From IMG/VR virus record IMGVR_UViG_3300009159_004776, positions 1 to 42,245 of that record: a stretch of 42,245 nt of DNA; one strand, 5' to 3'. Both the position numbers and the translations under genes were made by a program. Position 1 is the stretch's first letter. Each line of letters opens with the position of its first letter. Below, piece by piece: positions 11,092 through 41,420 of this stretch. The notes beneath the pieces were generated by a model. The model was not told the origin of the DNA. It saw only the letters and a list, made by a program, of their open reading frames with translations, and ran no database searches. The stretch is from a virus.

Positions 11092-11618
11092 AACAGAAAT
11101 TTATTGATTTATATATGGCGTGGGCAGAACGTACAGCTCAATTAAGCCATGCTGTACGTCTACAAGTGGGTGCTGTTATTGTCAAAGATGACAGCGTGAT
11201 CAGCTATGGCTACAATGGTATGCCCGCAGGTTGGGATAACAACTGCGAAGATAAAGAATACATGAGCGTAGACGCAGGAGGTTGGCTAGATCCTGATGAG
11301 ATTAAAGAACAATGGCCTTTTGAAGAAGAACCAAAAATTCAATGGTTCGGTGATGATCCTATAACTGTTACCAATAGATATAAATTGAAAACTAAACCAG
11401 AGGTATTACATGCTGAAACAAATGCGATTGCTAAATTGGCTCGATCTACAAACAGTGGTCTGGGTGCTACTATGTTTGTTACCCATGCTCCATGTATGGA
11501 GTGTGCCAAACTTATCTACCAAAGTGGTATTGGCAGTGTTCTATATCGTAACAGTTATCGTGACACTAGTGGCGTTGCGTTTTTGGAAAAATCGGGTGTA
11601 ACAGTTACACAGGTATGA
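11088..11618 (+). CDS. dCMP deaminase
   Basis: 176 residues. It converts dCMP to dUMP, feeding ThyX. Zinc-site motifs are H108-A-E110 and P135-C136-x-x-C139. The N-terminal segment LSHAVRLQVGAVIVKDD and a long insertion between residues 50 and 100, which in T4-type enzymes holds an allosteric region, match the phage family. A second structural zinc site in the insertion is possible, but only C53 is obvious. ATGA overlaps lie at both ends. Confidence 0.93.
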   Translation: MKQKFIDLYMAWAERTAQLSHAVRLQVGAVIVKDDSVISYGYNGMPAGWDNNCEDKEYMSVDAGGWLDPDEIKEQWPFEEEPKIQWFGDDPITVTNRYKLKTKPEVLHAETNAIAKLARSTNSGLGATMFVTHAPCMECAKLIYQSGIGSVLYRNSYRDTSGVAFLEKSGVTVTQV

Positions 11619-12856
11619 AAAAGAAAATATTGGTAATAGGTGCAGGCAGTGGCGGCCTACTGACTCTTTGCCAAATGTGTTCCTCGCTACCCTATGAATG
11701 GGAAGTTCATTCAGTATATGATCCTAAAATTCCAATATTGGGAGTAGGAGAAGCTACCAGTACCAATGCCCCATTCCAATTGTTTAAAGGCACAGACTTT
11801 ATACTTGAAAGAGACGCACACTATCTTGATGCCACCTACAAGTATGCTGTAAAATACACCAACTGGCGTGAACACGCATTTGACAGTGTTATTATTCCTC
11901 CAGGGCATGCCATGCACTTTGACAACACACGCCTTAAAGAATTTGTGTTTATGCGTCTCAGTGAAAGATATCCCGAACGTTTCTTTATACACGAAGGCAC
12001 TGTAGAATATTTTAAAAACATCACCAATGGTGCTGAAGTAAAAATTAACGATGTTATAGAAACATATGACTATGTTATAGACTGTAGCGGATTCCCTAAA
12101 GACTACACAGGATATACCATGGTTGATTTACCTATTAATCATGCTCTAGTAACTCCCATACACAAGCCCGGCGACTGGAATTACACTCATCATTGGGCAC
12201 ACAAACACGGATGGATGTTTGGTATTCCTTTGCAACATCGTCAAGGTTGGGGGTATCTGTACAATGATCAGATAACTTCTAAAGAAGCTGCCATGGAAGA
12301 TATGTGTGAAATTTTAAAAATTAATCCACTAGAACAAAAATTTAGAGAATACACTTTTAAACCCTACTATACAATAAAAGGATTAGTCAACGGCCGCCTG
12401 TTGAAGAATGGCAATCAATTTATGTTCTTTGAACCTATGGAGGCATTGTCTATGGAGTATTACACTAATTTAAATCAACGATATGTTGCTCTAATGCAGG
12501 GCAAGGAAACTAAACAAGAGCTAGAAAAACAAACACAGTGGTCAGTTAGTTCTTTGATATTCTTTTATAGATTTATCTATCACGGCGGATCCGTATACGA
12601 CACAGAGTTCTGGCGTGTTACTAAAGAGAAATGTAAGCGGTATCTAACCAATGACAGCGAGTTTCAAGAAATGATCAGGTATTGGCGTGATCGTAGTTAC
12701 GATCCAAATTTATCCACAGAATTAAACATGCCCCCATTCCGTGCCTATACTTGGGAACAGTTTAATAAAAATCTAGGCTATGACTACTTTGTGAAACCGG
12801 CCGCACCTCCTGTGAAAAACACTAAATTACAAATTCCTGGATTGCTGTTCGGATAA
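11615..12856 (+). CDS. Flavin-dependent halogenase (tryptophan halogenase family)
   Basis: 413 residues. FADH2-dependent halogenases put Cl, Br or I on aromatic substrates through HOX. Visible: FAD motif GAGSGG (9-14), GVGEAT, the catalytic lysine K76 in ATYKYAVKY (PrnA K79 equivalent) and the catalytic Glu in FEPMEALSMEY (PrnA E346 equivalent). The WxWxIP signature reads WMFGIP, keeping the first Trp and Ile-Pro. FAD fixation residues (DCSGF) are also present. Related viral halogenases occur in cyanophages. It faces a methyltransferase-like gene tail to tail, ending 1 nt away. The substrate is unknown. Confidence 0.8.
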   Translation: MKKKILVIGAGSGGLLTLCQMCSSLPYEWEVHSVYDPKIPILGVGEATSTNAPFQLFKGTDFILERDAHYLDATYKYAVKYTNWREHAFDSVIIPPGHAMHFDNTRLKEFVFMRLSERYPERFFIHEGTVEYFKNITNGAEVKINDVIETYDYVIDCSGFPKDYTGYTMVDLPINHALVTPIHKPGDWNYTHHWAHKHGWMFGIPLQHRQGWGYLYNDQITSKEAAMEDMCEILKINPLEQKFREYTFKPYYTIKGLVNGRLLKNGNQFMFFEPMEALSMEYYTNLNQRYVALMQGKETKQELEKQTQWSVSSLIFFYRFIYHGGSVYDTEFWRVTKEKCKRYLTNDSEFQEMIRYWRDRSYDPNLSTELNMPPFRAYTWEQFNKNLGYDYFVKPAAPPVKNTKLQIPGLLFG

Positions 12857-13875: not shown

Positions 13876-13940
13876 TATTGTTGTATGAAGCAAAGAGAAC
13901 GGTGTTCTGGACGGGGGTGCGAATCCCCCCAGGTCCACCA
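13876..13940 (+). ncRNA. ssrA: tmRNA acceptor piece (3' part, permuted gene)
   Basis: This is the 3' end of tmRNA, placed upstream of the 5' part. The T stem is GGGGG 13913-13917 with CCCCC 13925-13929 around loop TGCGAAT. Next comes CAGGTCC 13930-13936 (the 3' acceptor strand), a discriminator A and an encoded CCA ending at 13940. CAGGTCC pairs with GGGCCTG at 14124-14130 (7 pairs, one G-U). TTGTTG 13878-13883 pairs with CAACAA 14147-14152 as a P2-like helix joining the two pieces. The exact 5' end is uncertain. Confidence 0.85.
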
Positions 13941-13951
13941 TAAGGAAGTTT

Positions 13952-14122
13952 GTGAAAAGTAAAAGTAAGTTCAGTCGTTATAATCTTAAAGGCAACATTA
14001 TGTGGTGCCTTAATTGGCGTAACGGATGGGTAAGAATTTACAACACTATGATTCGTTGGAATACCAATTGGACAACTAATTATAGATACTTTTCAATAGA
14101 ACAAATAAAAGTTTCTTTATGA
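13952..14122 (+). CDS. 56-codon ORF inside the tmRNA intervening segment
   Basis: GTG start at 13952 with AAGGAAG 4-10 nt upstream and a TGA stop at 14120-14122, one base before the mature tmRNA 5' end at 14124. The peptide is basic and Trp/Tyr/Asn-rich: KSKSKFSRYN near the start, then MWCLNWRNGW and IRWNTNWTTNYRY. The frame fills nearly the whole intervening segment (13941-14123), which in known permuted tmRNA genes is usually just discarded RNA. That fit plus the ribosome site argue against chance, but there is no homology support. Confidence 0.5.
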   Translation: MKSKSKFSRYNLKGNIMWCLNWRNGWVRIYNTMIRWNTNWTTNYRYFSIEQIKVSL

Positions 14123-14123
14123 T

Positions 14124-14275
14124 GGGCCTGCATAGTTTCGACAGGGCAACAAGTAACAGAGTGGACAGCACGGTAGGCGATGACCGTTAATCAAGCAAAA
14201 AAAGTAAACGCAAACGACTCACAGTTCGCATTAGCAGCCTAAACACTGCTTAGGGTAGGAAATACCTCGTAACAG
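14124..14275 (+). ncRNA. ssrA: tmRNA coding piece (5' part with tag, permuted gene)
   Basis: It begins GGGCCTGCATAGTTTCGACA, matching the tmRNA 5' end and D-loop region. Stem ACGGT/ACCGT (14170-14174, 14183-14187) fits a PK1-like element. The tag ORF is 14210-14242, encoding ANDSQFALAA then TAA, with an A-rich AGTAAAC just before the resume codon. The stop codon sits in a P5-type hairpin, AGCAG 14233-14237 with CTGCT 14246-14250, as in E. coli tmRNA. The LAA end is the ClpX/ClpA recognition signal. The gene order acceptor then coding makes this a circularly permuted two-piece tmRNA, known in some alphaproteobacteria, cyanobacteria and betaproteobacteria. Confidence 0.92.
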
Positions 14276-14761: not shown

Positions 14762-14778
14762 TATAATAAAGTTAAATA
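14762..14778 (+). promoter_or_regulatory. Promoter region of pqqA
   Basis: A consensus -10 TATAAT at 14762-14767 without a good -35, then a TAAATA box GTTAAATA at 14771-14778. Either could start transcription 20-30 nt before pqqA. Confidence 0.45.
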
Positions 14779-14799
14779 GTTTTGTAAAAGGAGAACAGT

Positions 14800-14871
14800 A
14801 TGTGGACAAAACCAACAGCAACTGATATGCGTTTCGGATTTGAAATCACTATGTATATTGCTAATCGCTAA
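14800..14871 (+). CDS. pqqA: PqqA, pyrroloquinoline quinone precursor peptide
   Basis: 23 residues, starting MWTKPTATDMRF and ending ITMYIANR. It matches the PqqA family almost end to end (MW-K-P-x-x-x-D-x-R-x-G-x-E-x-T-x-Y-x-x-x-R). The Glu and Tyr that PqqE cross-links to make the PQQ skeleton are E15 and Y19 with the required three-residue spacing. AAAGGAG precedes the ATG. It is a single-gene unit with its own promoter region and a hairpin at 14889-14908. No pqqB-F genes are in the window, so host enzymes would have to process the peptide. This points to a host that uses PQQ, such as a methanol-oxidising bacterium. Too short to appear among the longer ORFs. Confidence 0.9.
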   Translation: MWTKPTATDMRFGFEITMYIANR

Positions 14872-14888
14872 TACATATTGAGGATTCA

Positions 14889-14909
14889 AAACCCGCTTCG
14901 GCGGGTTTC
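14889..14909 (+). terminator. Intrinsic terminator after pqqA
   Basis: AAACCCGC, loop TTCG, GCGGGTTT, then TCT. A stable UUCG-capped hairpin just after pqqA. Confidence 0.75.
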
Positions 14910-15557: not shown

Positions 15558-15890
15558 ATGAACGCTGAAAACACACTTACACAATTGAAACTATGGTGCC
15601 TTGCTCAAAGCAAGGATGAGCAAATTTGGACCAACAAAGGTACTACCTATCATTGGAATCGTGGCAAGGATACAGCCACAGGACTGGTCAACGGTGTTGT
15701 ACGCAAACTTGCAGGCATTGACGCATCTGGTCGCCAAATCTGGGTAGTAGCAGGATCATTTAAGATCGCTGGCACAGGAGAAGTCTTGCGTTTCACCGGA
15801 ATCCCTAGTAAAATTCAAAAGTCTTTTGAAGTACGGCAGACCACAGCATCTGCCGATGTTGTTAACACACCTGTATTAGAAACAGTATGA
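15558..15890 (+). CDS. Conserved phage protein of unknown function
   Basis: 110 residues with a strong Shine-Dalgarno (AAAAGGAGG). The middle, with WTNKGTTYHWNRGKD and DASGRQIWVVAGSFKIAG, looks like a small beta-sheet domain; the last 20 residues are flexible. No known enzyme motif. It heads a probable operon with the next two genes, from a host-type promoter, so it may be expressed early. Confidence 0.6.
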   Translation: MNAENTLTQLKLWCLAQSKDEQIWTNKGTTYHWNRGKDTATGLVNGVVRKLAGIDASGRQIWVVAGSFKIAGTGEVLRFTGIPSKIQKSFEVRQTTASADVVNTPVLETV

Positions 15891-22658: not shown

Positions 22659-23073
22659 ACCAACCTAGTTTTTCACCAGCGGCCTTTCTACGGTCGCTTT
22701 CTTCTTTTGTGCTAGGATAACGGCTGGCCCATACCAATATTAGAGCAAAGAACACGCCCATTCCCAATACTGCCTTCCAGTTCTGTGTAGCAAACCACAT
22801 GATAACCAAGCTGGCATCCATGCTTAGGAACATGATCCATTTTACCTTGTTAGGATACACTCTGCCGTCACTCCAGTTATTAATGAACGGTCCAAACAGT
22901 TTGTGATTTAACATATAATCGTGAAACTTTTTACTACTACGAGCAAAACAGTAGGCAGCAATTAAACTGGGTGTTGACCAAGGAATACCTGGCACAATAA
23001 CACCAATATAGGCAATGCCTAAAAATAATATACCTGCCGTAAACCAAAGATACTTTTTAATTTTGTTAATCAT
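22651..23073 (-). CDS. DUF454 (YbaN-like) inner membrane protein
   Basis: 140 residues on the minus strand. Membrane helices are near 8-30 (LWFTAGILFLGIAYIGVIVP), 79-95 and 98-115. The family signature is GVIVPGIPWSTPSLIAAYCF followed by ARSSKKFHDYMLNHKLFGPFI. The molecular function of DUF454 is not known to me. It overlaps hemA by 4 nt in the same operon, suggesting a role linked to tetrapyrroles; this is inference. Confidence 0.85.
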   Translation of the reverse strand: MINKIKKYLWFTAGILFLGIAYIGVIVPGIPWSTPSLIAAYCFARSSKKFHDYMLNHKLFGPFINNWSDGRVYPNKVKWIMFLSMDASLVIMWFATQNWKAVLGMGVFFALILVWASRYPSTKEESDRRKAAGEKLGWFR

Positions 23074-24263
23074 AATATTTCCTTAAGACTACGAGTGAGA
23101 TAGTCAATGTCCGCTTCCGTGTGATTGGGGGTGGGTGTTGCACGAAGTCTTTCAGCCCCCCATGGTACTGTAGGATAATTGATTGGCTGTAGATAAATTG
23201 CTTTTTCTTCTAGCAGCCAATCAGATATGTGTTTACATTTTTTAGCATCACGTATCATAATAGGAACAATGTGTGTGTTGCCTTCCATTACGTCAATACC
23301 GTTGGATAACAAATGTTCCTTTGTCTGTGTTGCTACTTGAAATATTTTAGTACGTAGTTCAGGATGATCAGAAACATACTTAACAGATGCAAGAGCCCCA
23401 GCACACAGCACAGGACTCATACTAGTTGAAAAAATAAAACTTTGAGCAAAACTTCTAATCATATCAATTAAGTCTCTACCTGCGGCAACATAACCTCCCT
23501 GTACCCCGTAGGCTTTAGCCAGCGTACCTTGTATAACGTCAACACCGTCTACGCATCTCTGTTCTTCTGCAATACCTGCACCTCTAGCACCGTATAGTCC
23601 CACAGCATGAACTTCATCAACATAGACCATAGCACCGTATAACCTAGCTATATCACAGACATCGCTGATTAGACCCTTATCGCCGTCCATACTGTACACG
23701 CCTTCTAATGCAATAATTGGCTGTGAGTTTTCTGGTAAATTTTGTAGGATTTCTTTCAAATGTTCAAGGTCGTTATGCCGCCAAACAGTAATTGGTGCAC
23801 CGCTGCTTTTCATACCTACAATCATTGAGTTGTGATTGAACGCATCCGAAATATAATGCACATTTGGAATCATTTTGCCCATTACACCAAGAGCACCTTG
23901 ATTAGCTACATATCCGCTGGTAAAGGTCAGTGCCGAAGTTTTGTCATGCAGTTTGGCTAGTTCGTATTCTAGTGCCACATGATAATGAGTAGTTCCGGAA
24001 ATATTTCTAGTTCCGCCACTGCCTGCTCCGGCGGTATCTAATGCAGTACGCATAGCATCTAGAACAACTTTATGCTGTCCCATGCCCAAATAGTCATTAC
24101 TACACCAATTGGTAATGTGTTTGATATTGTATTTGCCGTAGTAAACAGCCCTTGGAAACTCGCCACACTCACGTAGAATGTCTGTGAAAACTCGATAGTT
24201 TCCATCAGATTTGAGTTTCTCCAAACTTTGTGCTATGGCATCTTGTGTTTTTGGTTTTATCAT
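23070..24263 (-). CDS. hemA: 5-aminolevulinate synthase (ALAS)
   Basis: 397 residues on the minus strand (typical ALAS about 405). It condenses glycine and succinyl-CoA to 5-aminolevulinate, using PLP (Shemin pathway). PLP lysine K250 is in GTLAKAYGV, the ring-binding Asp D216 in VYVDEVHAVG, and the stacking His H144 in DAFNHNSM. The glycine loop GAGSGGTRNISGTTHYH and NDYLGMGQH near 56-64 are hallmarks that separate ALAS from KBL/BioF. PINYPTVPWGAERLR closes the active site. No Shine-Dalgarno is visible; a TAAATA box lies 8 nt upstream. Betaproteobacteria usually make ALA from glutamate (C5 pathway), so this would be a bypass in such a host. Phage ALAS genes have been described in aquatic phages. 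Confidence 0.95.
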   Translation of the reverse strand: MIKPKTQDAIAQSLEKLKSDGNYRVFTDILRECGEFPRAVYYGKYNIKHITNWCSNDYLGMGQHKVVLDAMRTALDTAGAGSGGTRNISGTTHYHVALEYELAKLHDKTSALTFTSGYVANQGALGVMGKMIPNVHYISDAFNHNSMIVGMKSSGAPITVWRHNDLEHLKEILQNLPENSQPIIALEGVYSMDGDKGLISDVCDIARLYGAMVYVDEVHAVGLYGARGAGIAEEQRCVDGVDVIQGTLAKAYGVQGGYVAAGRDLIDMIRSFAQSFIFSTSMSPVLCAGALASVKYVSDHPELRTKIFQVATQTKEHLLSNGIDVMEGNTHIVPIMIRDAKKCKHISDWLLEEKAIYLQPINYPTVPWGAERLRATPTPNHTEADIDYLTRSLKEIL

Positions 24264-26134: not shown

Positions 26135-26922
26135 TACGTTTTTTATTGATATTGTTATTCTGCGGACAGGTGTTGGCCAAGTCACCAGCACCCAAAACAC
26201 CTCCTCAAGGTGTATTACTCTATAACGAAACTACTAATCAGATATTAATCGAAACTAATCCTGAATATGTAAGACCTATTGCCAGCGTTACAAAATTAAT
26301 GACCGCTATGGTAGCATTAGATTATGATAAGAATTTAACTCGTTCTCTCAAATTAGTTAAACGTACCAAAGGTATTATTCCCTACAACACTTATTCTCGT
26401 GGAGAGATCATTCACGCTATGTTGATACGCAGTGATAACAATGCTGCTGAAACACTGGCAGCAGATTACCCTGGAGGAAGAGCTGCATTTTTGACAGCAA
26501 TGAATCGCAAGGCCAGTCAGTTAAAAATGTACAACACTAACTTCGACGATCCTAGCGGATTGGATCCGCATAATGTTTCTACAATACACAATTTAAAATT
26601 GATGTTACAGGCCAGTGCCCAGTACCCGTTGATTAGAGAAATCAGTGTAAAGAAACAGGTGATGTTCGAAAAGAGATACAAGAAGAAAATTAGAAAAATT
26701 GTAATACCAAATACCAATAGTCAACTGTTGTTGGAATTTGATAACATTGTTGTAACCAAAACAGGTTTGACTAATCCAGCAGGTTGGTGCTTGGGATTGG
26801 TAGTAGAACAACATCAGCAGAGATATATTGTGGTTATTTTAGGTGCAAGAAATAAGCTCGAAAGACTTAAAATTGCCAAAGAAATAATGTATAATCATTT
26901 ATCTGATACTGATTTAAAATGA
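26131..26922 (+). CDS. Serine D-Ala-D-Ala carboxypeptidase (S11, PBP5-like)
   Basis: 263 residues. Signal peptide about 1-16 (MIRFLLILLFCGQVLA), so it is exported. Penicillin-binding motifs are S52-V-T-K55, S101-D-N103 and K210-T-G212. It trims the terminal D-Ala of peptidoglycan stem peptides in the periplasm. The PBP5 C-terminal amphipathic anchor is absent, so it may be soluble. It could modify the wall before lysis or block other phages; this is inference. The catalytic set is complete. Confidence 0.9.
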   Translation: MIRFLLILLFCGQVLAKSPAPKTPPQGVLLYNETTNQILIETNPEYVRPIASVTKLMTAMVALDYDKNLTRSLKLVKRTKGIIPYNTYSRGEIIHAMLIRSDNNAAETLAADYPGGRAAFLTAMNRKASQLKMYNTNFDDPSGLDPHNVSTIHNLKLMLQASAQYPLIREISVKKQVMFEKRYKKKIRKIVIPNTNSQLLLEFDNIVVTKTGLTNPAGWCLGLVVEQHQQRYIVVILGARNKLERLKIAKEIMYNHLSDTDLK

Positions 26923-27146
26923 TAATGTACAAAGACTTTGCTGCCGCAGGTAAATTCTGGTTAGAATATAGCGATCTAAAACAAGACGGTTGGATTGAAT
27001 TACGTATGCCTACACCCACTGTTGAAACAGAGATTATTGAAGATTGGCTATCAAGAGCAGGAATAACCCAAGTACTGGGAACTGGTCAATACTGGGTTTT
27101 TAAAAATCCTGTAGATGCAACAATGTTTAGATTAACATGGCTGTAA
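26919..27146 (+). CDS. Tandem array protein 1 (MFRLTWL tail)
   Basis: 75 residues, first of six short related proteins in a row. It ends GQYWVFKNPVDATMFRLTWL, with the shared pattern [Y/F]-x-F-[K/R]-[N/D]-x-x-D-x-x-M-F-x-L-x-W. The N-terminal part (AAAGKFWLEYSDLKQDGW) is different in each member. It overlaps the carboxypeptidase by 4 nt and the next gene by 10 nt. Such small proteins with FxLRWS ends are known to me from T4-like aquatic phages; function unknown. Confidence 0.65.
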   Translation: MIMYKDFAAAGKFWLEYSDLKQDGWIELRMPTPTVETEIIEDWLSRAGITQVLGTGQYWVFKNPVDATMFRLTWL

Positions 27147-27502
27147 GTAATCTAGAAAAACAAATTTTAGATGATATAGTCAAAGGTCTGCAGAAAGCAA
27201 TTGACAATGATATTATGAATGATATTATGAGAACACTGTTTGGAGAAACATACGAATTGAACATCAGTACAGGTACAGTATCTGGGACGCAGTATCAGAC
27301 TGCTATGCCTAGTTGGACGCCGTCAAGACACGGTTGGCATAATCCAGAATGGAATGAAATGATAGAGTGGTGTGTAAAGATGTTTGGACCAACTGCCAAG
27401 GACGGAGTCTGGACTCCCGATGAACGTTGGTACGCTAACAATGCTAAATTTTGGTTCCGCGATGAAGCGGATTTGTTAATGTTTGTTTTGAGGTGGTCAT
27501 GA
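27137..27502 (+). CDS. Tandem array protein 2 (MFVLRWS tail)
   Basis: 121 residues, the longest member. The N-terminal helix (QILDDIVKGLQKAIDNDI) is unique to it. The middle, HGWHNPEWNEMIEWCVKMFG, fits the W-x-x-E-W-C segment found in members 4 and 5. The tail is AKFWFRDEADLLMFVLRWS. Its last codons (AGG TGG TCA TGA) contain an AGGTGG that can serve as Shine-Dalgarno for the next ATG. Confidence 0.65.
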   Translation: MAVSNLEKQILDDIVKGLQKAIDNDIMNDIMRTLFGETYELNISTGTVSGTQYQTAMPSWTPSRHGWHNPEWNEMIEWCVKMFGPTAKDGVWTPDERWYANNAKFWFRDEADLLMFVLRWS

Positions 27503-27684
27503 GATACAAAGTAACTCTAGTACATACACAGGGTTGGGAACCAAGAGATTGGGCTAGAGAACATTGCCTAAGTTATCTTTCTTGCACCCTACACGGAATT
27601 TTTGGTGACGGAGCCAAACTCTTTATGGACTATCATTTCAATGAAGAGAAAGATTTAACAATGTTTTTATTAAGGTGGTCATAA
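27499..27684 (+). CDS. Tandem array protein 3 (MFLLRWS tail)
   Basis: About 61 residues from the ATG at 27499, which overlaps the previous TGA (ATGA); an in-frame GTG 6 nt upstream is less likely. WEPRDWAREHCLSYLSC matches the W-x-x-x-H/E-C segment of the array, and the tail is HFNEEKDLTMFLLRWS. It ends in TAATG with the next gene, and AGGTGG lies 8 nt before that ATG. Confidence 0.62.
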   Translation: MRYKVTLVHTQGWEPRDWAREHCLSYLSCTLHGIFGDGAKLFMDYHFNEEKDLTMFLLRWS

Positions 27685-27968
27685 TGGCAACAGCTCCCAG
27701 TATCAGTAGTATTGTTGGTGGATTAAACATAGGTTCAGATCACGAACTGCGTCCTATGAAAACTGGTAAGGCCAAAGGTCTGGGTATGGAATATACCTGG
27801 GTTGAAATTGCTCGAACAGAATCTACTCCTTTGGATATTAATGAACAAGCTCAGACATGGTGCCGAGAACGATTTGGCCGTGCCGGTGTTCGCTGGTTTG
27901 AAAAGAAAGATAAGTTTTATTTTAAAAACGAAAAAGACTTGACTATGTTTTTGCTGATGTGGTCATGA
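27684..27968 (+). CDS. Tandem array protein 4 (MFLLMWS tail)
   Basis: About 94 residues from the ATG at 27684 (MATAPSISSIVGG). The N-terminal 45 residues are unique. Then EQAQTWCRERFGRAGVRWFE, and the tail FYFKNEKDLTMFLLMWS, which is nearly the same as member 3 (EKDLTMFLLxWS). That points to a recent duplication of the C-terminal part. Confidence 0.62.
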   Translation: MATAPSISSIVGGLNIGSDHELRPMKTGKAKGLGMEYTWVEIARTESTPLDINEQAQTWCRERFGRAGVRWFEKKDKFYFKNEKDLTMFLLMWS

Positions 27969-28174
27969 GAGATCTAACAGATATATGGTTTGTTGCTAGT
28001 GTACCTGCACCTATTGAAGACCGTGTAAGCAAACATGTTTACCAAGGATGGTCGCCCTGTATGTGGTGGTGTGCCGAACATTTCGAATCACAGAATTGGC
28101 GTTTTGTTGGAGAAGGGGTATTTGAGTTTAGAAGATCCGAAGATCATTTGATGTTCATATTAAGGTGGGCATAA
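27965..28174 (+). CDS. Tandem array protein 5 (MFILRWA tail)
   Basis: About 69 residues from the ATG at 27965 (ATGA overlap). WSPCMWWCAEHFESQNWRFV is the W/C/H-x-F segment, and the tail is FEFRRSEDHLMFILRWA. It ends TAATG with member 6, with AAGGTGGG in its last codons before that ATG. Confidence 0.62.
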   Translation: MRDLTDIWFVASVPAPIEDRVSKHVYQGWSPCMWWCAEHFESQNWRFVGEGVFEFRRSEDHLMFILRWA

Positions 28175-28359
28175 TGGAACTCGAACACGAATACCACGGA
28201 ATTGAAGTAACTAGATTTAACCAAAAATTAATCGATCATTTGGAAAACAAGTACGGCCCTCCGGGCGACCGTTGGTTTTGCCGAGTAGGAACCTGGACTT
28301 CAACTATATACTTTAAAGATCCTAAAGATCACCTAATGACCCTGCTGGAATTAGCGTAA
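28174..28359 (+). CDS. Tandem array protein 6 (divergent tail)
   Basis: About 61 residues from the ATG at 28174. LIDHLENKYGPPGDRWFCRV and the tail IYFKDPKDHLMTLLELA keep the D-x-L-M-x-x-L core but lose the LRW end, as expected for the last gene, which has no following start to serve. Confidence 0.6.
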   Translation: MELEHEYHGIEVTRFNQKLIDHLENKYGPPGDRWFCRVGTWTSTIYFKDPKDHLMTLLELA

Positions 28360-31373: not shown

Positions 31374-31676
31374 ATGGCAGAAACTAAAGTTAAAGACGAC
31401 GTAGAAATTGACGAAGAGCTGATGATGCCCAGTCGATATAAAGTTGTGTTGGTCAACGACAATACTACTCCTGTAGATTTTGTTATTGCATTACTGATGC
31501 ACGTTTTCAAACACACTGAAGAACGAGCTAAAGAAATTACCCTAGAAGTTCACAATGAAGGAGCCGGAGTTGCCGGTATATTCCCTTATGAAATTGCTGA
31601 ACAAAAAGGTGTGGAAAGTACACTGTTAGCACGACAAAACGGATGGCCGCTGGTCATCAGAGTAGAGGAAGAATGA
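31374..31676 (+). CDS. clpS: ClpS adaptor
   Basis: 100 residues. SRYKVVLVNDNTTPVDFVI (about 22-40) matches ClpS (YKVILVNDDYTPMEFVI in E. coli); the Asp and the His of the substrate pocket are kept (VND and EVHNEGAGVAG), while the third acidic residue is Asn. GIFPYEIAEQK matches GVFTAEVAETK. ClpS passes N-degron substrates to ClpA. No clpA is in the window, so host ClpA would be the partner. The gene overlaps the heme oxygenase start (ATGA) and heads that operon. With ClpX and tmRNA it suggests phage control of host Clp proteolysis. Confidence 0.92.
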   Translation: MAETKVKDDVEIDEELMMPSRYKVVLVNDNTTPVDFVIALLMHVFKHTEERAKEITLEVHNEGAGVAGIFPYEIAEQKGVESTLLARQNGWPLVIRVEEE

Positions 31677-32215
31677 GCTTAAAAGATCTTACTTGGGACA
31701 AACATCAAGCCGCAGAAGCCACAGATTTTATGAAGTCTGTATTCAAAAAGAAAATGCCCATTAGTGTATGGGCAGACTACACATACAATAAAATGCTATG
31801 GTACGGTGCAATTGAAACCAAAGCCAGTGCAGAAGGTTACTTAGACGACCTACCAGGCATTCAACGTGCCTACTTTCTTTATCAAGACTCTAAAGAATTG
31901 TTAAACGGTGAGTTCCCTCGATTCCGACAAACAGCAATTGATTATCACAGATATATTTTAGATCTTCCTCCAGGCCAAGTACTGGCACATTTATATGTGT
32001 GGCACATGGGTGACTTGTTTGGCGGACAGATGATCAAGAAAATCCTTCCACCACCGCACCGTAATTTAGATTTTAAAGATGTTGATTCATTAAAGGCCGC
32101 AATGCGTCCTAAACTTGATGACAGTCTAGGCGAAGAAGCCAACATTGCCTTTGACTGGGCAATCAAAATAATGGATTCATACAAAGATGAGCTTGGTCTG
32201 GAACACACTGATTGA
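31673..32215 (+). CDS. Heme oxygenase
   Basis: 180 residues from the ATG at 31673, preceded by GAGG; an in-frame ATG at 31643 lies inside clpS without a ribosome site. The proximal heme ligand is H11 in TWDKHQAAE. The distal helix is GDLFGGQ at 113-119, following LAHLYVWHM, where the usual Ser is Phe. It opens heme to biliverdin, CO and iron with ferredoxin electrons. Followed directly by two bilin reductases, which use biliverdin. Known in cyanophages and other aquatic phages. Confidence 0.93.
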   Translation: MSLKDLTWDKHQAAEATDFMKSVFKKKMPISVWADYTYNKMLWYGAIETKASAEGYLDDLPGIQRAYFLYQDSKELLNGEFPRFRQTAIDYHRYILDLPPGQVLAHLYVWHMGDLFGGQMIKKILPPPHRNLDFKDVDSLKAAMRPKLDDSLGEEANIAFDWAIKIMDSYKDELGLEHTD

Positions 32216-32870
32216 CATTCAACAGGAGTTTGAACGTCAGTTTAATCAAACAGGTCTTGAAATACAAGAGCCCGGCTTAGAAAGATTTAATTGGTATAAC
32301 AAAGTCTGGACTAGTGATAGATACCGTCGTGCTCATATTGATGTAGTAGATGCACGTGAGACCAAGGGGCTTTGGATGATGCACTGTTGTGTGTTCCCCC
32401 ACTTAAACAACCCTGCTCCTATATTTGGTTTTGATGTCGTAGCTGGCAAAAATAAAATTACTGGTTGTTTTCATGACTTTAGTCCTGCTGGCGATATTGA
32501 ACATCCTTTGATCGAATGGTTTGCTGGAGAGGCAGTAAAGCTACAGTGGAACAAGATACGCAAATTGCCAGATTGGGCAGAACGTATCTTTACTGAAAGC
32601 ATGATATCTGCGGGTAATGTCAGTGACCCGGCTGAATTAACACAGATTTCTTTACTAGCAAAAAACAATCTTGCACACTATCTAAACACAGTTTCGGATA
32701 CCAACGGTCACAGCGTTGATGTTTCTCGTAATCAAAACTATTACTGTGACAACCAACAGAAAAATCCCCACACACCCAAGGTAATGACTGCCTTGGGATT
32801 AAACGAAGAAGATGTACGTGTGTTTATACAAGATTGCCTGTTTCCTAAAATAGGAATCAAGCATGAGTAA
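32187..32870 (+). CDS. Ferredoxin-dependent bilin reductase 1 (PcyX/PcyA lineage)
   Basis: 227 residues, overlapping heme oxygenase by 29 nt; the start is supported because its N terminus (MSLVWNTL) resembles that of the second reductase (MSNVWDQM). The family core is SDRYRRAHIDVVD, IFGFDVVAGKNKITGCFHDF and NYYCDNQQKNPH. Key residues: D52 (where PcyA has Glu76), H66 (His88), D83 (Asp105) and D178, a candidate for the second catalytic Asp. The His suggests the PcyA/PcyX lineage rather than PebS. Reduces biliverdin stepwise with ferredoxin electrons; the product is not predictable here. Confidence 0.9.
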   Translation: MSLVWNTLIDIQQEFERQFNQTGLEIQEPGLERFNWYNKVWTSDRYRRAHIDVVDARETKGLWMMHCCVFPHLNNPAPIFGFDVVAGKNKITGCFHDFSPAGDIEHPLIEWFAGEAVKLQWNKIRKLPDWAERIFTESMISAGNVSDPAELTQISLLAKNNLAHYLNTVSDTNGHSVDVSRNQNYYCDNQQKNPHTPKVMTALGLNEEDVRVFIQDCLFPKIGIKHE

Positions 32871-33528
32871 TGTCTGGGACCAAATGAGAGACTGTGCAGC
32901 GACCATGCAGTCCATGATGGAAGCAGCAGGTCATAGACATCACGACGCCAGTTTAGATCAATACGATTGGGAAAATCATATCTACCACAGTGATCGGTAT
33001 CGTAGAGGACATGTAGAAGTTGTTGACAAAACAGCCAGTCACGGCATTTATATTTTACATGCTACTATCTTTGCTCACACAGATGATGCTAGTCCTGTAT
33101 GGGGGTTTGATGCTGTATGTGGGAAAAGCAAAATAACAGGCGCCTTTCACGATTTTAGTCTTGTAACGCCCAATCATTATATGTGGCAGTGGTTCCGTGA
33201 TCAGGTCAAAGATATCACATGGAACAAACAGCGTGAACTGCCTGAATGGGCTCGTAATATATTCAGTCCTGCAATGGTGGCTGCAGGTAATATCAGCGAA
33301 CAGCACGAGCTTGATAATATCACAGAATTAGGTATAAAAACACTGGAATATTATTTGTCCAACGTAGGGGATAGGATTGTTGGACAAAACTTCAAAGAAC
33401 AGCAGAATTATTACTGTAAAAATCAAAAGTTAAACCCGCACGTATATCGCAGTATGATTGCTATGGGTGTAGAAGAAGCTGTAATTAAACAGTTTGTAGA
33501 AAAAGTCTTGTTCCCAGAACTAGCATAA
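32863..33528 (+). CDS. Ferredoxin-dependent bilin reductase 2 (PcyX/PcyA lineage)
   Basis: 221 residues, a diverged paralog of the reductase just upstream. Shared: SDRYRRGHVEVVD, WGFDAVCGKSKITGAFHDF, NYYCKNQKLNPH. It has E52, H66 and D83 as in PcyA (Glu76, His88, Asp105), but the residue aligned with D178 of reductase 1 is N176. So the two enzymes probably differ in reaction or order: either two successive steps, or two different bilins. It overlaps the first by 8 nt, with AGGAA before its ATG. Confidence 0.9.
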   Translation: MSNVWDQMRDCAATMQSMMEAAGHRHHDASLDQYDWENHIYHSDRYRRGHVEVVDKTASHGIYILHATIFAHTDDASPVWGFDAVCGKSKITGAFHDFSLVTPNHYMWQWFRDQVKDITWNKQRELPEWARNIFSPAMVAAGNISEQHELDNITELGIKTLEYYLSNVGDRIVGQNFKEQQNYYCKNQKLNPHVYRSMIAMGVEEAVIKQFVEKVLFPELA

Positions 33529-36215: not shown

Positions 36216-36317
36216 ATGAAATTTTTAATAGAACTATATCAAAAGATAACTAGTGATTACAAACTCAAGAAGCGACTCAAAGAGTTGAGGAAACGTGATC
36301 CATTTATCTACAAATGA
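36216..36317 (+). CDS. Tiny basic conserved phage protein
   Basis: 33 residues: MKFLIELYQKITSDYK at the start and KRDPFIYK at the end, with Lys/Arg-rich helix between. The KRDPFIYK end is one I know from small proteins of T4-like cyanophages. The stop overlaps the next gene (ATGA). Function unknown. Confidence 0.6.
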   Translation: MKFLIELYQKITSDYKLKKRLKELRKRDPFIYK

Positions 36318-37195
36318 AAATATTAGGAATTAATGCTCTGAATCATGACGCCAGTGTAGCTGTGCTCGACGGTACAGTACTAATGCATGAACGTGCCAGT
36401 AAGTATTCTGGTATGCCAAATGATCACTATCTTAATCAACAACTGGTCGATCATGCTTTAAGTTTTGGACGGCCCGATGCGATTGCTTATTATGAACAAC
36501 CGTGGATTAAAAAATCAAGACAGTTGTATGCAGGACAATTCAAAGAAGCATTCGATATTTCAAATATTCCTAGTTTATATCTAAAACAGTTTGGACTCGC
36601 TAACATACCTATCAAGTATGTTCCACATCATGCCAGTCATGCTGGCTGTGCATACACTGGCCCTTTCAACAAAGCTGCGGTTATAGTAGTAGATGCAATT
36701 GGAGAATGGGACACTGTTAGCATTTGGAAATTTGACGGCAAACTAGAAAAAGTATATAATAGAACTTACCCCTACAGTTTAGGATTGTTTTATTCTGCAT
36801 TCACTGAACTAGTGGGTCTTGTTCCTACTCAAGACGAAAATGCTTTTATGAAATTAAGTCAATTGGGCGACCCTAAGATGTATTATCAACGTGTGATGTC
36901 ATACATTAATAAAAATTTACATCGGGGTATTTGGGACTGGGATGTTGACATTAACAATACATCTGAGATACAAAATATTTCTGCCGCAGTGCAACAAGTG
37001 TTTGAAGAACAGTTAGAATATATATTTAGAATTGCTAGATTTGAATCTAGTAATGCAATATTCACAGGCGGATGTGCATATAACAAAGTATCACATGGGC
37101 TTTTAGCAAAGATATTTAATGCATATTGGATTCCTAAGAATCCCGGCGATGCTGGATCAAGCCTAGGTGCAGCCTACTATATAAAGAATTTATAA
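36314..37195 (+). CDS. Carbamoyltransferase-like protein, N-terminal domain only
   Basis: 293 residues, about half the family's usual length of 550-600. It keeps the ASKHA-type N-terminal (TsaD/Kae1-like) domain of the NodU/TobZ family: ILGINALNHDASVAVLDG, the metal ligands H105, H106 and H109 in PHHASHAGCAY, VVDAIGEWDT, GGCAYNKVSHG and NPGDAGSSLGAAYY. The C-terminal carbamoyl-transfer half is missing, and the next ORF begins 1 nt after the stop and is a radical SAM protein, so no frameshifted remainder is seen. It may act with another protein. Cyanophages often carry similar genes. Confidence 0.8.
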   Translation: MKILGINALNHDASVAVLDGTVLMHERASKYSGMPNDHYLNQQLVDHALSFGRPDAIAYYEQPWIKKSRQLYAGQFKEAFDISNIPSLYLKQFGLANIPIKYVPHHASHAGCAYTGPFNKAAVIVVDAIGEWDTVSIWKFDGKLEKVYNRTYPYSLGLFYSAFTELVGLVPTQDENAFMKLSQLGDPKMYYQRVMSYINKNLHRGIWDWDVDINNTSEIQNISAAVQQVFEEQLEYIFRIARFESSNAIFTGGCAYNKVSHGLLAKIFNAYWIPKNPGDAGSSLGAAYYIKNL

Positions 37196-37196
37196 G

Positions 37197-38654
37197 ATGG
37201 CAAATGTTATACTATGGAATTCAACTCCAGAAGATAAAGATTGGCAACAGACTATAGATAATCAATCTTTGTTAGTACCGAGAGTATTTCGACCTCTGGG
37301 TCCGCATCAATTAGCCACGTGGCTAAGGAATCATGGCTACACTGTAAAAGTAATTGATTTTTGTAATTATATGACTGTAGATCAACTATTACAGATTACA
37401 GAAAAATACATCGACTCTTCTACACTAGCAATAGGAGTTAGTACTACTTTCTGGCCAACGGGCACTAGAGTTTTATCAGTTAATAATCCTAAACAGATCT
37501 ATGATGTGCCGCAGTGGGTAGAATCTGCAAGAAAAAGAATTGAAAGCAAGTTTACAAATATCAAATGGTGCCTAGGAGGTGCTAGGACATTTTATTATCA
37601 GAATAGATCTGAGTGGCAGTGTTTCAGTGGTGATGCTGAAGACTCATTATTAAAATGGGTTGATGAGATTTCAGGCAAAAAAATAGTCAGACCACTGTTT
37701 GATATAAAAGAAGCATCATCACATTTTGTAGAAGATGATCATATACAACCGCAAGAAGTAATACCAATAGAGTTAGGACGTGGTTGTATGTTTAAGTGTA
37801 AATTTTGTTCTTTTGACAAACTAGGTAAGAAACCAGGAACCTATTTAAAAAATTATCATCGAGTCTATCAAGAAATACTAGACCACCATAACAAATGGGG
37901 AACTACTCGATTTGTCTATGTTGATGATACAGTTAACGAAAGCGAAGAAAAAATTCAAGCACTGGCAGATATAGCACTTAGTGTCCCTTTTAAATTAGAA
38001 TGGGTGGGTTTTATACGTGCAGATTTAATTTGGTCCAAACCACAAACAGCTAAATTATTAAAAGAAAGTGGATTAAGATCTGCATCAATTGGCATCGAGA
38101 GTTTTGAAAGAAAATCAAGTCAGTTGATTGGCAAAGGGTGGAGTGGAAAACATGCCAAAGATTGGCTGCTGGAAAAAAGAGCAGAATGGGGAGACGATGT
38201 TAACTGGTATCTTAGCTTAATTGTAGGTATTCCGGGTCAGACATTTAAACAATTAAATGACGACTGCGATTGGTTAATAAACAACGATATGCATAGTTGG
38301 AGTTTTCTTCCTTTATATATCATGTCTGATCATCAACAGATTGAGGGTAGCTGGATGAGTGAATTTACAAGAAACTACAATCAATATGGTTTTCACTTTC
38401 CTGATCCTAATAGGGCATGGTATTGGGAAAACGGCAAATGGAACTTTGACGTTGCGTTAGAAGTAAGTAGATTGTTAAATGAAAAAGGCTTTAAGTATAC
38501 AAAATCGACAAGTTTTCAAATGGCCGAAACAGCTACTCATGGATTTGAATTTGATGAACTAATGAATCTAAAATGGAGTGATTATCCCTGGAAAAGAGTT
38601 TATAAATCAGCTACAACATTTATCGACAAATATATCAAATTAAATTTACAATAA
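37197..38654 (+). CDS. B12-binding-like radical SAM protein 1
   Basis: 485 residues. N-terminal 1-160: a cobalamin-binding-like Rossmann fold (GPHQLATWLRNHGYTVKVID, then IKWCLGGART). The radical SAM cluster C-x3-C-x2-C is in GRGCMFKCKFC (about 198-208). The core continues with VYVDDTVNESEEKIQAL, RSASIGIESF and SLIVGIPGQT. Radical SAM/B12 enzymes methylate or rearrange unreactive carbons; the substrate is unknown. It follows the carbamoyltransferase-like gene by 1 nt. Confidence 0.88.
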   Translation: MANVILWNSTPEDKDWQQTIDNQSLLVPRVFRPLGPHQLATWLRNHGYTVKVIDFCNYMTVDQLLQITEKYIDSSTLAIGVSTTFWPTGTRVLSVNNPKQIYDVPQWVESARKRIESKFTNIKWCLGGARTFYYQNRSEWQCFSGDAEDSLLKWVDEISGKKIVRPLFDIKEASSHFVEDDHIQPQEVIPIELGRGCMFKCKFCSFDKLGKKPGTYLKNYHRVYQEILDHHNKWGTTRFVYVDDTVNESEEKIQALADIALSVPFKLEWVGFIRADLIWSKPQTAKLLKESGLRSASIGIESFERKSSQLIGKGWSGKHAKDWLLEKRAEWGDDVNWYLSLIVGIPGQTFKQLNDDCDWLINNDMHSWSFLPLYIMSDHQQIEGSWMSEFTRNYNQYGFHFPDPNRAWYWENGKWNFDVALEVSRLLNEKGFKYTKSTSFQMAETATHGFEFDELMNLKWSDYPWKRVYKSATTFIDKYIKLNLQ

Positions 38655-38657
38655 ATA
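38650..38657 (+). promoter_or_regulatory. T4-late-like box AATAAATA
   Basis: Overlaps the stop of radical SAM 1 and ends 4 nt before the start of radical SAM 2. Confidence 0.4.
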
Positions 38658-38661
38658 GATC

Positions 38662-40155
38662 ATGGCAAATTTTATTATATGGGCTACTCCGGGTACTGCT
38701 GAAGTTGTAAGATCTCACTATAGGAATCTTGTAAAAGCCAAAGAAAGACCTTCTCATACTTACCAAAGTTTTATTTGGCATACAGACAAACAAATTGATC
38801 CTAAAGAGGCTATACCTCCAAGATGGTGCAGGACTCTAGGTCCTTATCAGCTTGCAAGTTGGTTAAGAGGACACGGTTATACTGTAAAAATTATTGACTT
38901 CTGTTTGTTCATGACTACAGATCAATTGGTGAGAATTACCGAAAAACACATTGATAATGATACTTTGGCTATTGGGGCTAGTACTTCTTTTTGGCAAATG
39001 TTTGAAACCGTGCCTCAATGGGCTATCGATGCTAGAATACATATTAACAAAAAATTTAAAAATATTAAATGGTGCCTTGGTGGTCACGGTGCTAATAGAT
39101 TTCAATTGCAAGGTTGGGAAGTCCTTCAAGGAGAGGGTGAAAATGTAGTTTTAAGATGGCTGGACGAATTAGCAGGTAAAAAAATGTTTAGACAGCCTTT
39201 TGATATTAAAGAAACCTCAAATGCATTCATGCCAGATGATTTTATTCAACCTTATGAATTTATCCCCGTAGAACTTGGGCGAGGTTGTAAGTTTAAATGT
39301 AAATTTTGTCAATTCCCAAACATAGGTAAAAAACCAGGAACTTATTTAAAAAATTATGAATGTTTATACAGAGAAATACTAGACCACCATAACAAATGGG
39401 GTACTACTAGATTTTATTATACTGACGATACTGTTAACGAAAGCGAAGAAAAAATTCAAGCATTGGTAGATATAGCACAACGAGTGCCATTTAAACTAGA
39501 ATGGATCGGCTATAATAGGATAGATTTAATTTGGTCAAAACCGCACACTGCTGAATTATTAAAAGAAAGTGGACTACGATCTGCTTTCTTTGGCATTGAA
39601 AGTTTTGAAAGAAAATCAAGTCTATTAATAGGTAGAGGATGGAGCGGCCTACATGCTAAAGATTGGTTACTTGAACTAAAAGACATTTGGAAAGACCAAA
39701 TAAATTGGTCAGTGGCCACTATTGTGGGAGTACCAGGCCAGACTCCTGAACAACTAATAAACGATTGTGACTGGATGATAGAAAATAAAATGTATTCGTG
39801 TACAATGCATGCCTTGCATATTAATCCGTCAAATACAAGTTTAATGGCATCCCAAAGTGAATTTGAAAGAAATTATCAAGAATATGGTTTTCAATTCCCT
39901 GACCCGGCACGTCCCTGGTATTGGGAAAATGGTTTTTGGAATTATGATAAAGCTCTAGCAATGACAGACCTTCTTTTAAGTAAAACTACTAAGCATCAAA
40001 AATTGGCTTCGTGGGAACTGGGAGAATATGCATCATTGGGCTATAGTGTAGATGAATTAATTAATGTAGATCAAATAAAATTGTTGCATGATCAAGAAAT
40101 TTTTACAAAATCTTGGAATTTTATTGAAAACTATGTTACAAAAAATTTATTGTAA
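38662..40155 (+). CDS. B12-binding-like radical SAM protein 2 (paralog)
   Basis: 497 residues, a clear paralog of the gene upstream, with a 35-residue N-terminal extension. Cluster motif GRGCKFKCKFC (about 211-221), GPYQLASWLRGHGYTVKIID in the N-terminal fold, YYTDDTVNESEEKIQAL, RSAFFGIESF. The nucleotide identity to copy 1 reaches 30 bases without change at 39372-39401 (copy 1: 37871-37900), so the duplication is rather recent or is kept alike by recombination. The differences lie mostly in the C-terminal third, where substrate recognition is expected. Confidence 0.88.
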   Translation: MANFIIWATPGTAEVVRSHYRNLVKAKERPSHTYQSFIWHTDKQIDPKEAIPPRWCRTLGPYQLASWLRGHGYTVKIIDFCLFMTTDQLVRITEKHIDNDTLAIGASTSFWQMFETVPQWAIDARIHINKKFKNIKWCLGGHGANRFQLQGWEVLQGEGENVVLRWLDELAGKKMFRQPFDIKETSNAFMPDDFIQPYEFIPVELGRGCKFKCKFCQFPNIGKKPGTYLKNYECLYREILDHHNKWGTTRFYYTDDTVNESEEKIQALVDIAQRVPFKLEWIGYNRIDLIWSKPHTAELLKESGLRSAFFGIESFERKSSLLIGRGWSGLHAKDWLLELKDIWKDQINWSVATIVGVPGQTPEQLINDCDWMIENKMYSCTMHALHINPSNTSLMASQSEFERNYQEYGFQFPDPARPWYWENGFWNYDKALAMTDLLLSKTTKHQKLASWELGEYASLGYSVDELINVDQIKLLHDQEIFTKSWNFIENYVTKNLL

Positions 40156-40298: not shown

Positions 40299-41420
40299 AT
40301 GAAAAAATTAGTTATTGCGGCAGCTTTGCTGATCGCAGGGTATGCACAAGCCCAGAATGTACAGTTGTACGGTGTTGCAGGAGCAGGTATTGTTAGTGGT
40401 AGTGGTTTCACTTCCAGCAACAGTGACTTCACTGGCATGGGTGAACAACTACACAACAGCAACCGTTTTGGTATCAAAGGCGTTGAAGACATAGGTGGTG
40501 GCTTGACAGCTAAATTTACCTTGGAAGGTAACTATAGTCTACGTACTGGTGCAGTTGGTAAAGACTCTGGCGGTACAGGAGCAGCAGGTACAACAATGTT
40601 TGATCGTGAAGCTAACATGGCATTAGCCGGTGACTTTGGTCAAGTTCAATTGGGCCGTGGCAAGAATTTTTTGTATCAAGTTGCTGACGAATTTGACTCA
40701 CGTGGTAACTGGAACTTTGGTGGTTTGAAATCAGCTGCTCGTTACGCTGGGTTCTACTCAGGTTCGGGTGTATCACGTTTTGACAACATGGTTCGTTACA
40801 CATCACCTAGCTTTGGCGGTTTGACATTTGATGGTGCCTATAGCTTTGGTAATCAGCCAGGCGACCAATCATACAAGACTAGCCATAACGTTGGCGTTCG
40901 TTACACAACAGGCCCATTGGATATTGCCTATACACACGAACAGGCTCGTTTGAGCACTGCTGTAGTCAGTGAAGAAATTGATCTAGTAGCAGTCAAGTAT
41001 GCTGTCAATCCAAAGTTGGTTGTAAATGCAGGTTATGCTATTACACGTAACCCAACAGCACAGACCACATACTACTCAAGCTCAAGCAAGGCAGATGGTA
41101 AGACAGATGCTAACACTTACTTCCTAGGTGCCAAGTACAAAGTTACTGATGCTCTAGGCGTTAACGCAGGTTACTACAGCGTTCAAGATCGAATTACTGC
41201 TGGTAAAGACACTGTCAAAATGACAGCAGTTGGTGTTACCTATGCTTTCAGCAAGCGTACAGAAGTATTTGCTGACTATGTAGTTGCAGACCGTGCTAGC
41301 GGTGCAGTAAGCCCATTCACAGTATATGACCGTTGGGTTCCAGATGCAGGTGGTACAACATACAGCGACAGCAAATACAAACAAAATGCTATTGCAGTCG
41401 GTATTCAACACCGCTTCTAA
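40299..41420 (+). CDS. Gram-negative (betaproteobacterial-type) porin
   Basis: 373 residues, full length. Signal peptide 1-18 (MKKLVIAAALLIAGYAQA), then QNVQLYGVAGAGI, the usual first strand of betaproteobacterial porins. Alternating polar/aromatic strands continue throughout: GLTAKFTLEGNY, DFGQVQLGRGKNFLYQVA, GLTFDGAYSFG, FLGAKYKVTDALGVNAGYYS. It ends in NAIAVGIQHRF, the terminal Phe needed for Bam-mediated insertion. The loop region PFTVYDRWVPDAGGTTYSDS is unusual. Forms a trimeric channel in the outer membrane. Own host-type promoter and terminator. Base composition seems higher in G+C than its neighbours, as expected for a gene taken from the host. Confidence 0.93.
   Translation: MKKLVIAAALLIAGYAQAQNVQLYGVAGAGIVSGSGFTSSNSDFTGMGEQLHNSNRFGIKGVEDIGGGLTAKFTLEGNYSLRTGAVGKDSGGTGAAGTTMFDREANMALAGDFGQVQLGRGKNFLYQVADEFDSRGNWNFGGLKSAARYAGFYSGSGVSRFDNMVRYTSPSFGGLTFDGAYSFGNQPGDQSYKTSHNVGVRYTTGPLDIAYTHEQARLSTAVVSEEIDLVAVKYAVNPKLVVNAGYAITRNPTAQTTYYSSSSKADGKTDANTYFLGAKYKVTDALGVNAGYYSVQDRITAGKDTVKMTAVGVTYAFSKRTEVFADYVVADRASGAVSPFTVYDRWVPDAGGTTYSDSKYKQNAIAVGIQHRF

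Follow-up and report, generated by a model that had tools for sequence, protein, structure and literature searches.

The window, as we call the whole stretch of DNA analysed here (a 42,245-base viral contig from IMG/VR), carries a stand-alone gene for PqqA, the PQQ precursor peptide. The best available explanation, which is that of the first-pass annotation and in our judgement a probable one, is that the phage PqqA supplies a consumed substrate for PQQ synthesis by the host. On this explanation, the phage uses pqqA as an auxiliary metabolic gene, a 'moron' consisting of a single gene.

A PqqA peptide encoded by the window

The pqqA gene (14800..14871, + strand) is a complete gene of 72 bases and 23 codons encoding MWTKPTATDMRFGFEITMYIANR. 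The peptide matched the Pfam PqqA model PF08042 with 40.8 bits (E 2.1e-10, cut-off 21.1) and the NCBIfam equivalog model TIGR02107 with 41.6 bits (cut-off 20), over the full length of both profiles (1-19 of 19 and 1-21 of 21, respectively). It was the sole PqqA match in a profile search of the record (E 8.9e-11), and a PqqA back-translation pattern was found once in the window and never in 100 dinucleotide shuffles. PqqE cross-links Glu15 and Tyr19 of PqqA. Both residues of this Glu-x-x-x-Tyr pair are present in MWTKPTATDMRFGFEITMYIANR and invariant in an alignment with the cultured-phage PqqAs, and the FGFE.TMY core of the window peptide is intact. The proposal of the first-pass annotation, a 23-residue PqqA with Glu15 and Tyr19, is thus borne out by both curated models and by the translation and, as judged from sequence, the ORF is a genuine phage-borne PqqA.

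No pqqB, C, D or E was found in the window, where the nearest thing to PqqE was a 38-residue match at chance level (E 0.82). A reading of the locus as a full pqqABCDE operon was therefore set aside.

Signals around pqqA

A Shine-Dalgarno sequence, AAAGGAG, was read at 14787..14793 (+), ending 6 nt before the ATG. Further upstream, TATAAT at 14762..14767 (+) is a candidate -10 element whose end lies 32 bases from the ATG; it is an exact consensus match only, and the promoter scan found no acceptable -35 or full sigma-70 site there. We also considered a phage-specific promoter motif, TGTATAATA, which was dropped since it was not over-represented in the window (2 seen versus 0.9 expected). On the 3′ side, a UUCG-capped, terminator-like hairpin (AACCCGC-UUCG-GCGGGUU, 14890..14907, +) starts eighteen bases after the stop codon, with a fold of -14.5 kcal/mol and a z of -3.8. 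The tail that follows is only UUUCUC, and the strict terminator scan missed the hairpin because this U-tract is short. The gene had been credited with a promoter region, a ribosome site and a terminator of its own. The ribosome site stands, while the promoter, with no good -35, and the terminator, with its poor U-tract, are in this single sequence somewhat weaker than claimed.

Genomic context in the window and its relatives

The window is clearly a fragment of a larger genome, since contigs carrying its 5-aminolevulinate synthase (ALAS) reach 228,849 bases and share local gene order with it. Phage-family matches elsewhere in the window include a phrog_298 exonuclease, a phrog_14154 virion structural protein and phrog_27048. 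The pqqA gene itself sits among phage genes, in a local gene order common to other viral contigs. A permuted tmRNA is located 5′ of it; 3′ of it come an alpha/beta-hydrolase-like gene and then two small genes, at 15558 and 15887, which are kept in the relatives of the window.

In relatives L029 and L032, pqqA lies directly 5′ of the counterparts of these two small genes. No pqqA was detected in other relatives such as L010, L012, L017, L021-L026, L031 and L033, though both small genes are kept. Since some relatives have the gene and others keep its neighbours without it, pqqA is an optional gene at a conserved spot. It is absent from 22 of the 24 ALAS-bearing relatives, many of these 24 being fragments, and no pqqB-E was found in 26 relative loci. 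Together with the downstream hairpin, this variable presence gives the gene the character of an auxiliary gene, optional and a unit of its own.

Viral pqqA loci in IMG/VR

A pattern scan of IMG/VR returned at least 120 pqqA loci; the pattern used specifies some of the residues of the peptide and leaves the last four free. The 120 matches listed comprise 45 distinct peptides. Sorted by the neighbours they share, they form 19 to 29 groups, and as the loci are short this is an upper estimate. None of these 120 carries pqqB, C, D or E alongside pqqA, and among them pqqA is antisense to both neighbours in 45 of 103 loci. A purine-rich Shine-Dalgarno motif precedes most of the genes listed, and a hairpin usually follows the gene. 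The 50 nt 3′ of the listed viral pqqA genes have a median fold of -14.0 kcal/mol, compared to -5.8 kcal/mol for intergenic controls (p 4e-23), the controls being other genes of the same loci with an intergenic downstream region. Similarly, an exact TATAAT was present within 45 nt upstream of 43 of the 119 viral pqqA genes listed, compared with 34 of the 510 other genes that these loci contain. Strong enrichment of both hairpin and TATAAT across viral pqqA genes provides statistical support for the single-gene unit proposed in the first-pass annotation.

Among the matches listed, the last four residues are kept whereas synonymous change is saturated: Asn22 is encoded by AAC 59 times and by AAT 59 times, Lys23 by AAG 67 times and by AAA 36 times. 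Since residues at positions left unconstrained by the pattern are kept while their synonymous codons are mixed, viral PqqA is under purifying selection.

pqqA in cultured phages

A tblastn search for PqqA, one of the checks suggested for the initial proposal, was performed on 50,697 phage records and gave matches in 12. It revealed an intact gene in all nine genomes of cultured methylophages that were found, namely Venkman, MEP301, MEP401, MEP402, P19250A and four Melnitz isolates, and one spring metagenome phage was accepted as a tenth carrier. Among the cultured carriers are a pair of Zobellviridae and a myovirus of the Kyanoviridae, besides other phages. Venkman, MEP301 and Melnitz represent three distinct groups and MEP401/402 a further one (PMC10580990). 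Venkman has a primase in common with six Pelagibacter phages. As no pelagiphage is found among the 12 matching records of the 50,697 despite this common primase, pqqA follows the need of the host and not the phage lineage.

Two contigs named 'Acinetobacter phage MD-2021a' (CAKLQF020000010.1 and CAKLQH020000055.1) also matched PqqA and were set aside as phage evidence. The one that was opened contains a pqqABCDE-type cluster, in which pqqB, pqqC and genes for a PqqD and a radical-SAM protein were recognised, surrounded by ordinary bacterial genes; it looks like a mislabelled bacterial chromosome. With an approximate query for the Methylobacterium-type PqqA, only weak matches, to Melnitz, were obtained; this type is not evident in the phage collection searched.

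The label PqqA is given to the gene in none of the nine cultured methylophages, where it either lacks annotation or has no overlapping feature other than a 'hypothetical protein', in line with the earlier remark that it is easy to miss because of its size. Five pqqA-bearing phage records have no annotated feature under the gene. In Melnitz MZ577097 (76100-76195) and in the spring phage MW202481 (2067-2195), 'hypothetical protein' ORFs are placed on the strand opposite an intact pqqA; these were apparently mis-called.

Host of the window phage

Since 23 residues cannot support a tree, diagnostic positions were used to assign the PqqA type. In a bacterial genome scan, PqqA tails occurred in two forms, EMRFGFEVTMYVMNK in Methylophilaceae and DMRFGFEITMYIANR in Burkholderiales and Rhodocyclales. 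The viral peptides among the matches listed split into these two forms like the bacterial ones, most of the loci listed being of the Methylophilaceae type. The window PqqA has the DMRFGFEITMYIANR tail and not EMRFGFEVTMYVMNK, and its residues 9-23 are those of the Burkholderiales/Rhodocyclales form. Its best match, from Thauera, is identical at 21 of 23 residues (one inserted start residue left out), compared to at most 17 of 23 for the Methylophilaceae form.

The window also encodes a Gram-negative porin (Porin_4) at 40299-41420, whose nearest relative is a Burkholderiales chromosomal porin. By far the best match, with 51% identity and 254 bits where the next one reached 119, comes from G025, a Burkholderiales MAG, where the porin gene adjoins OsmC- and Coq7-like genes (names read from translations) on a bacterial contig. 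In the Burkholderiales family to which G025 belongs, 138 of 151 genomes have a homologue, compared to none of 120 Methylophilaceae genomes. Among the 50,697 phage records, the porin had one partial match only.

In G025, pqqA heads pqqBCDE and several PQQ-dependent alcohol dehydrogenases are encoded. More generally, pqqA-bearing Burkholderiales carry pqqBCDE in the genomes sampled, and a PQQ-alcohol dehydrogenase passed the cut-off in 9 of the 12 sampled pqqA-positive Burkholderiales/Rhodocyclales genomes, including G025. However, pqqA is present in only 12 of 61 genomes of the G025 genus, so that many potential hosts could not use the phage PqqA. As this genus is not a uniformly better porin match, we give the host only to order level. 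On the basis of 23 residues and one porin, the host of the window phage is most likely a PQQ-making Burkholderiales/Rhodocyclales bacterium and not a Methylophilaceae methylotroph.

The opposite assignment, to a Methylophilaceae methylotroph in which the peptide would serve the XoxF/MxaF methanol dehydrogenase, would agree with the N-terminus MWTKP, which the window peptide has in common with Methylophilaceae PqqA, with the prevalence of that type among the viral loci listed and with the Methylophilaceae-like peptide found at the same place in two pqqA-bearing relatives of the window. We nevertheless regard it as unlikely in view of residues 9-23, of the closer Thauera peptide and of the distribution of the porin, whose best match stands on a bacterial contig. 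The Methylophilaceae host implied by the first-pass annotation is, by the same peptide signature and porin counts, probably wrong. Since peptide and porin point away from Methylophilaceae, the enzymes served would be PQQ-dependent alcohol dehydrogenases in general and not necessarily methanol dehydrogenase.

Substrate supply and alternative roles

PqqA is consumed one-for-one in making PQQ, while PqqB-E are catalysts or carriers. Because the peptide is destroyed for each PQQ made and the enzymes are reusable, providing the substrate alone would be the cheapest route to more PQQ. We propose that the phage gene would be expressed during infection, yielding extra PqqA, that host PqqD and PqqE would bind this peptide and cross-link its Glu15 and Tyr19, and that a host protease, PqqB and PqqC would then complete PQQ from it. 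Provided that the peptide is limiting, the extra PQQ would allow the PQQ-dependent alcohol dehydrogenases of the periplasm to go on supplying respiration with electrons, to the presumed benefit of the phage. A single added pqqA copy under its own signals could raise PQQ in this way at a cost of about 150 bases.

Gene dosage in bacteria bears on this proposal, as PQQ-dependent bacteria amplify pqqA alone. All 120 Methylophilaceae genomes contain pqqA, with a mean of about 4.3 copies and up to 12, an unusual dosage of one RiPP precursor gene, and the sampled Burkholderiales mostly have one copy. Dispersed stand-alone copies, up to 12 per genome, were observed in Methylophilaceae (for example L162, L223, L243 and G042). 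Disruption of pqqA in M. extorquens lowered PQQ but did not abolish it, which was explained by further pqqA copies. In a Hyphomicrobium strain with five pqqA copies, two rose with PQQ output (PMC9851590).

Alternatively, the gene could be functionless captured host DNA, a short gene acquired by recombination and left to drift. This would fit the 52 of 120 listed viral peptides that match one of the sampled bacterial PqqAs exactly from Trp onwards, the many dispersed Methylophilaceae copies available for pick-up and the absence of pqqA from most ALAS-bearing relatives, fragmentary as many of them are. We consider such a capture improbable: the gene is intact in every one of the cultured methylophages, its unconstrained residues are kept under synonymous saturation among the matches listed, and its ribosome site, hairpin and -10 context are conserved across unrelated genomes. 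Very improbable in our view is a decoy or inhibitor that occupies PqqD/PqqE and so shuts PQQ synthesis down or diverts the host. A small lone peptide without enzymes could conceivably jam the pathway if it were poorly processed. However, Glu15, Tyr19 and the FGFE.TMY core are intact and nearly half of the listed viral peptides equal a host peptide, as would be expected if the peptide were a substrate but not if it were an inhibitor; hosts themselves have several pqqA copies.

Other features of the window and its relatives

The permuted (two-piece) tmRNA upstream of pqqA is located at 13879-14242 (Rfam RF04321, 127.6 bits) and has the tag ANDSQFALAA. Permuted tmRNAs were also seen in L012, L018, L022, L023, L031 and L033, and in some of these the predicted tags are unusually long. 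A tmRNA of such strength is not resident in either candidate host family, where few genomes passed the Rfam tmRNA cut-off (1 of 120 and 5 of 121), so that the tmRNA gave no guidance on the host. In four relatives, a tRNA whose anticodon is CUA was called as tRNA-Pyl (L012:2587-2661, L018:12475-12548, L028:10827-10901 and L033:12475-12548). This is a candidate amber suppressor, and stop-codon recoding is possible in the phage group of the window.

Genes for 5-aminolevulinate synthase (533 bits with TIGR01821) and heme oxygenase, together with a tandem pair for ferredoxin-dependent bilin reductases (PF05996), occupy 23070-24263 (-) and 31643-33528 (+) and are, as judged by these profile matches, a tetrapyrrole gene set. 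At 36314-40155, a gene for a NodU-like carbamoyltransferase precedes those of two radical-SAM paralogues similar to the PhpK/B12-binding class; these genes could be a small-molecule or glycan modification set. A tryptophan-halogenase-family flavoprotein (PF04820) is encoded at 11615-12856. Finally, small, overlapping ORFs of similar size at 26919-28359 (starts 26919, 27137, 27493, 27675, 27959 and 28165) look like a tandem paralogue array.

Breadth and significance

One viral PqqA has already been published, from Lake Baikal; the breadth of its occurrence appears to be unreported. The open-access papers on the cultured methylophages found here do not mention pqqA, and those on Melnitz and MEP401/402 name other auxiliary genes. 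For reservoir sediment, a published list of viral genes includes 'pqqA, pqqE, pqqD' (PMC13188868). In open-access journal papers, we found no report of pqqA in every cultured methylophage, of a recurrent one-gene unit or of a Burkholderiales counterpart.

We lean, somewhat cautiously, towards a broader conclusion: that stand-alone pqqA is near-universal and repeatedly acquired in phages of PQQ-dependent hosts, with all nine cultured methylophages, from several unrelated groups, as one guild of carriers and large phages whose peptides are of the Burkholderiales type as a second, that the peptide tracks host lineage, and that viral PqqA both controls PQQ-dependent alcohol oxidation widely in aquatic habitats and is a 23-residue host marker. 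If this is true, the phages that infect abundant methylotrophs in water or PQQ-using Burkholderiales would commonly dose their hosts with the consumed component of PQQ, and gene callers would have missed the gene because it is 23 codons long. The peptide type would also offer a simple host clue for uncultured phages. Cultured pairs make the claim directly testable, namely OM43 strains with Venkman, Melnitz, MEP301 and MEP401/402, and the freshwater phage P19250A.

Comparison with known systems

The closest precedent is the Lake Baikal phage population VP_266, described in 2020, whose PqqA was proposed to boost PQQ for methanol oxidation (PMC7678222). Both VP_266 and the window encode the PqqA precursor peptide. 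VP_266 also encodes a methanol dehydrogenase and is assigned to Methylophilaceae, whereas no quinoprotein dehydrogenase was seen in the window fragment, whose peptide and porin point to Burkholderiales. The passages of that paper considered here describe neither a pqqA from cultured phages nor a single-gene unit that recurs.

Compared to bacterial PqqA (PF08042, TIGR02107), the window peptide is alike in length, in Glu15/Tyr19, in core sequence and in exceeding both cut-offs. In the sampled Burkholderiales, however, pqqA usually heads a single-copy pqqABCDE, while that of the window stands alone in a phage. Supernumerary stand-alone pqqA genes are described in Methylovorus sp. MP688 and Hyphomicrobium (cited in PMC9851590 and PMC6520949) and are read as dosage of a consumed substrate. 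Such extra copies in methylotrophs lie outside the operon, as does that of the phage, but are chromosomal, whereas that of the phage would come in with the infection. Phage-encoded AlaS, of the Shemin pathway, is also known (PMC11480375). Like PqqA, it is an aquatic phage metabolic gene supporting cofactor supply to respiration; AlaS, of which the window carries one too, is an enzyme, while PqqA is a peptide consumed as substrate.
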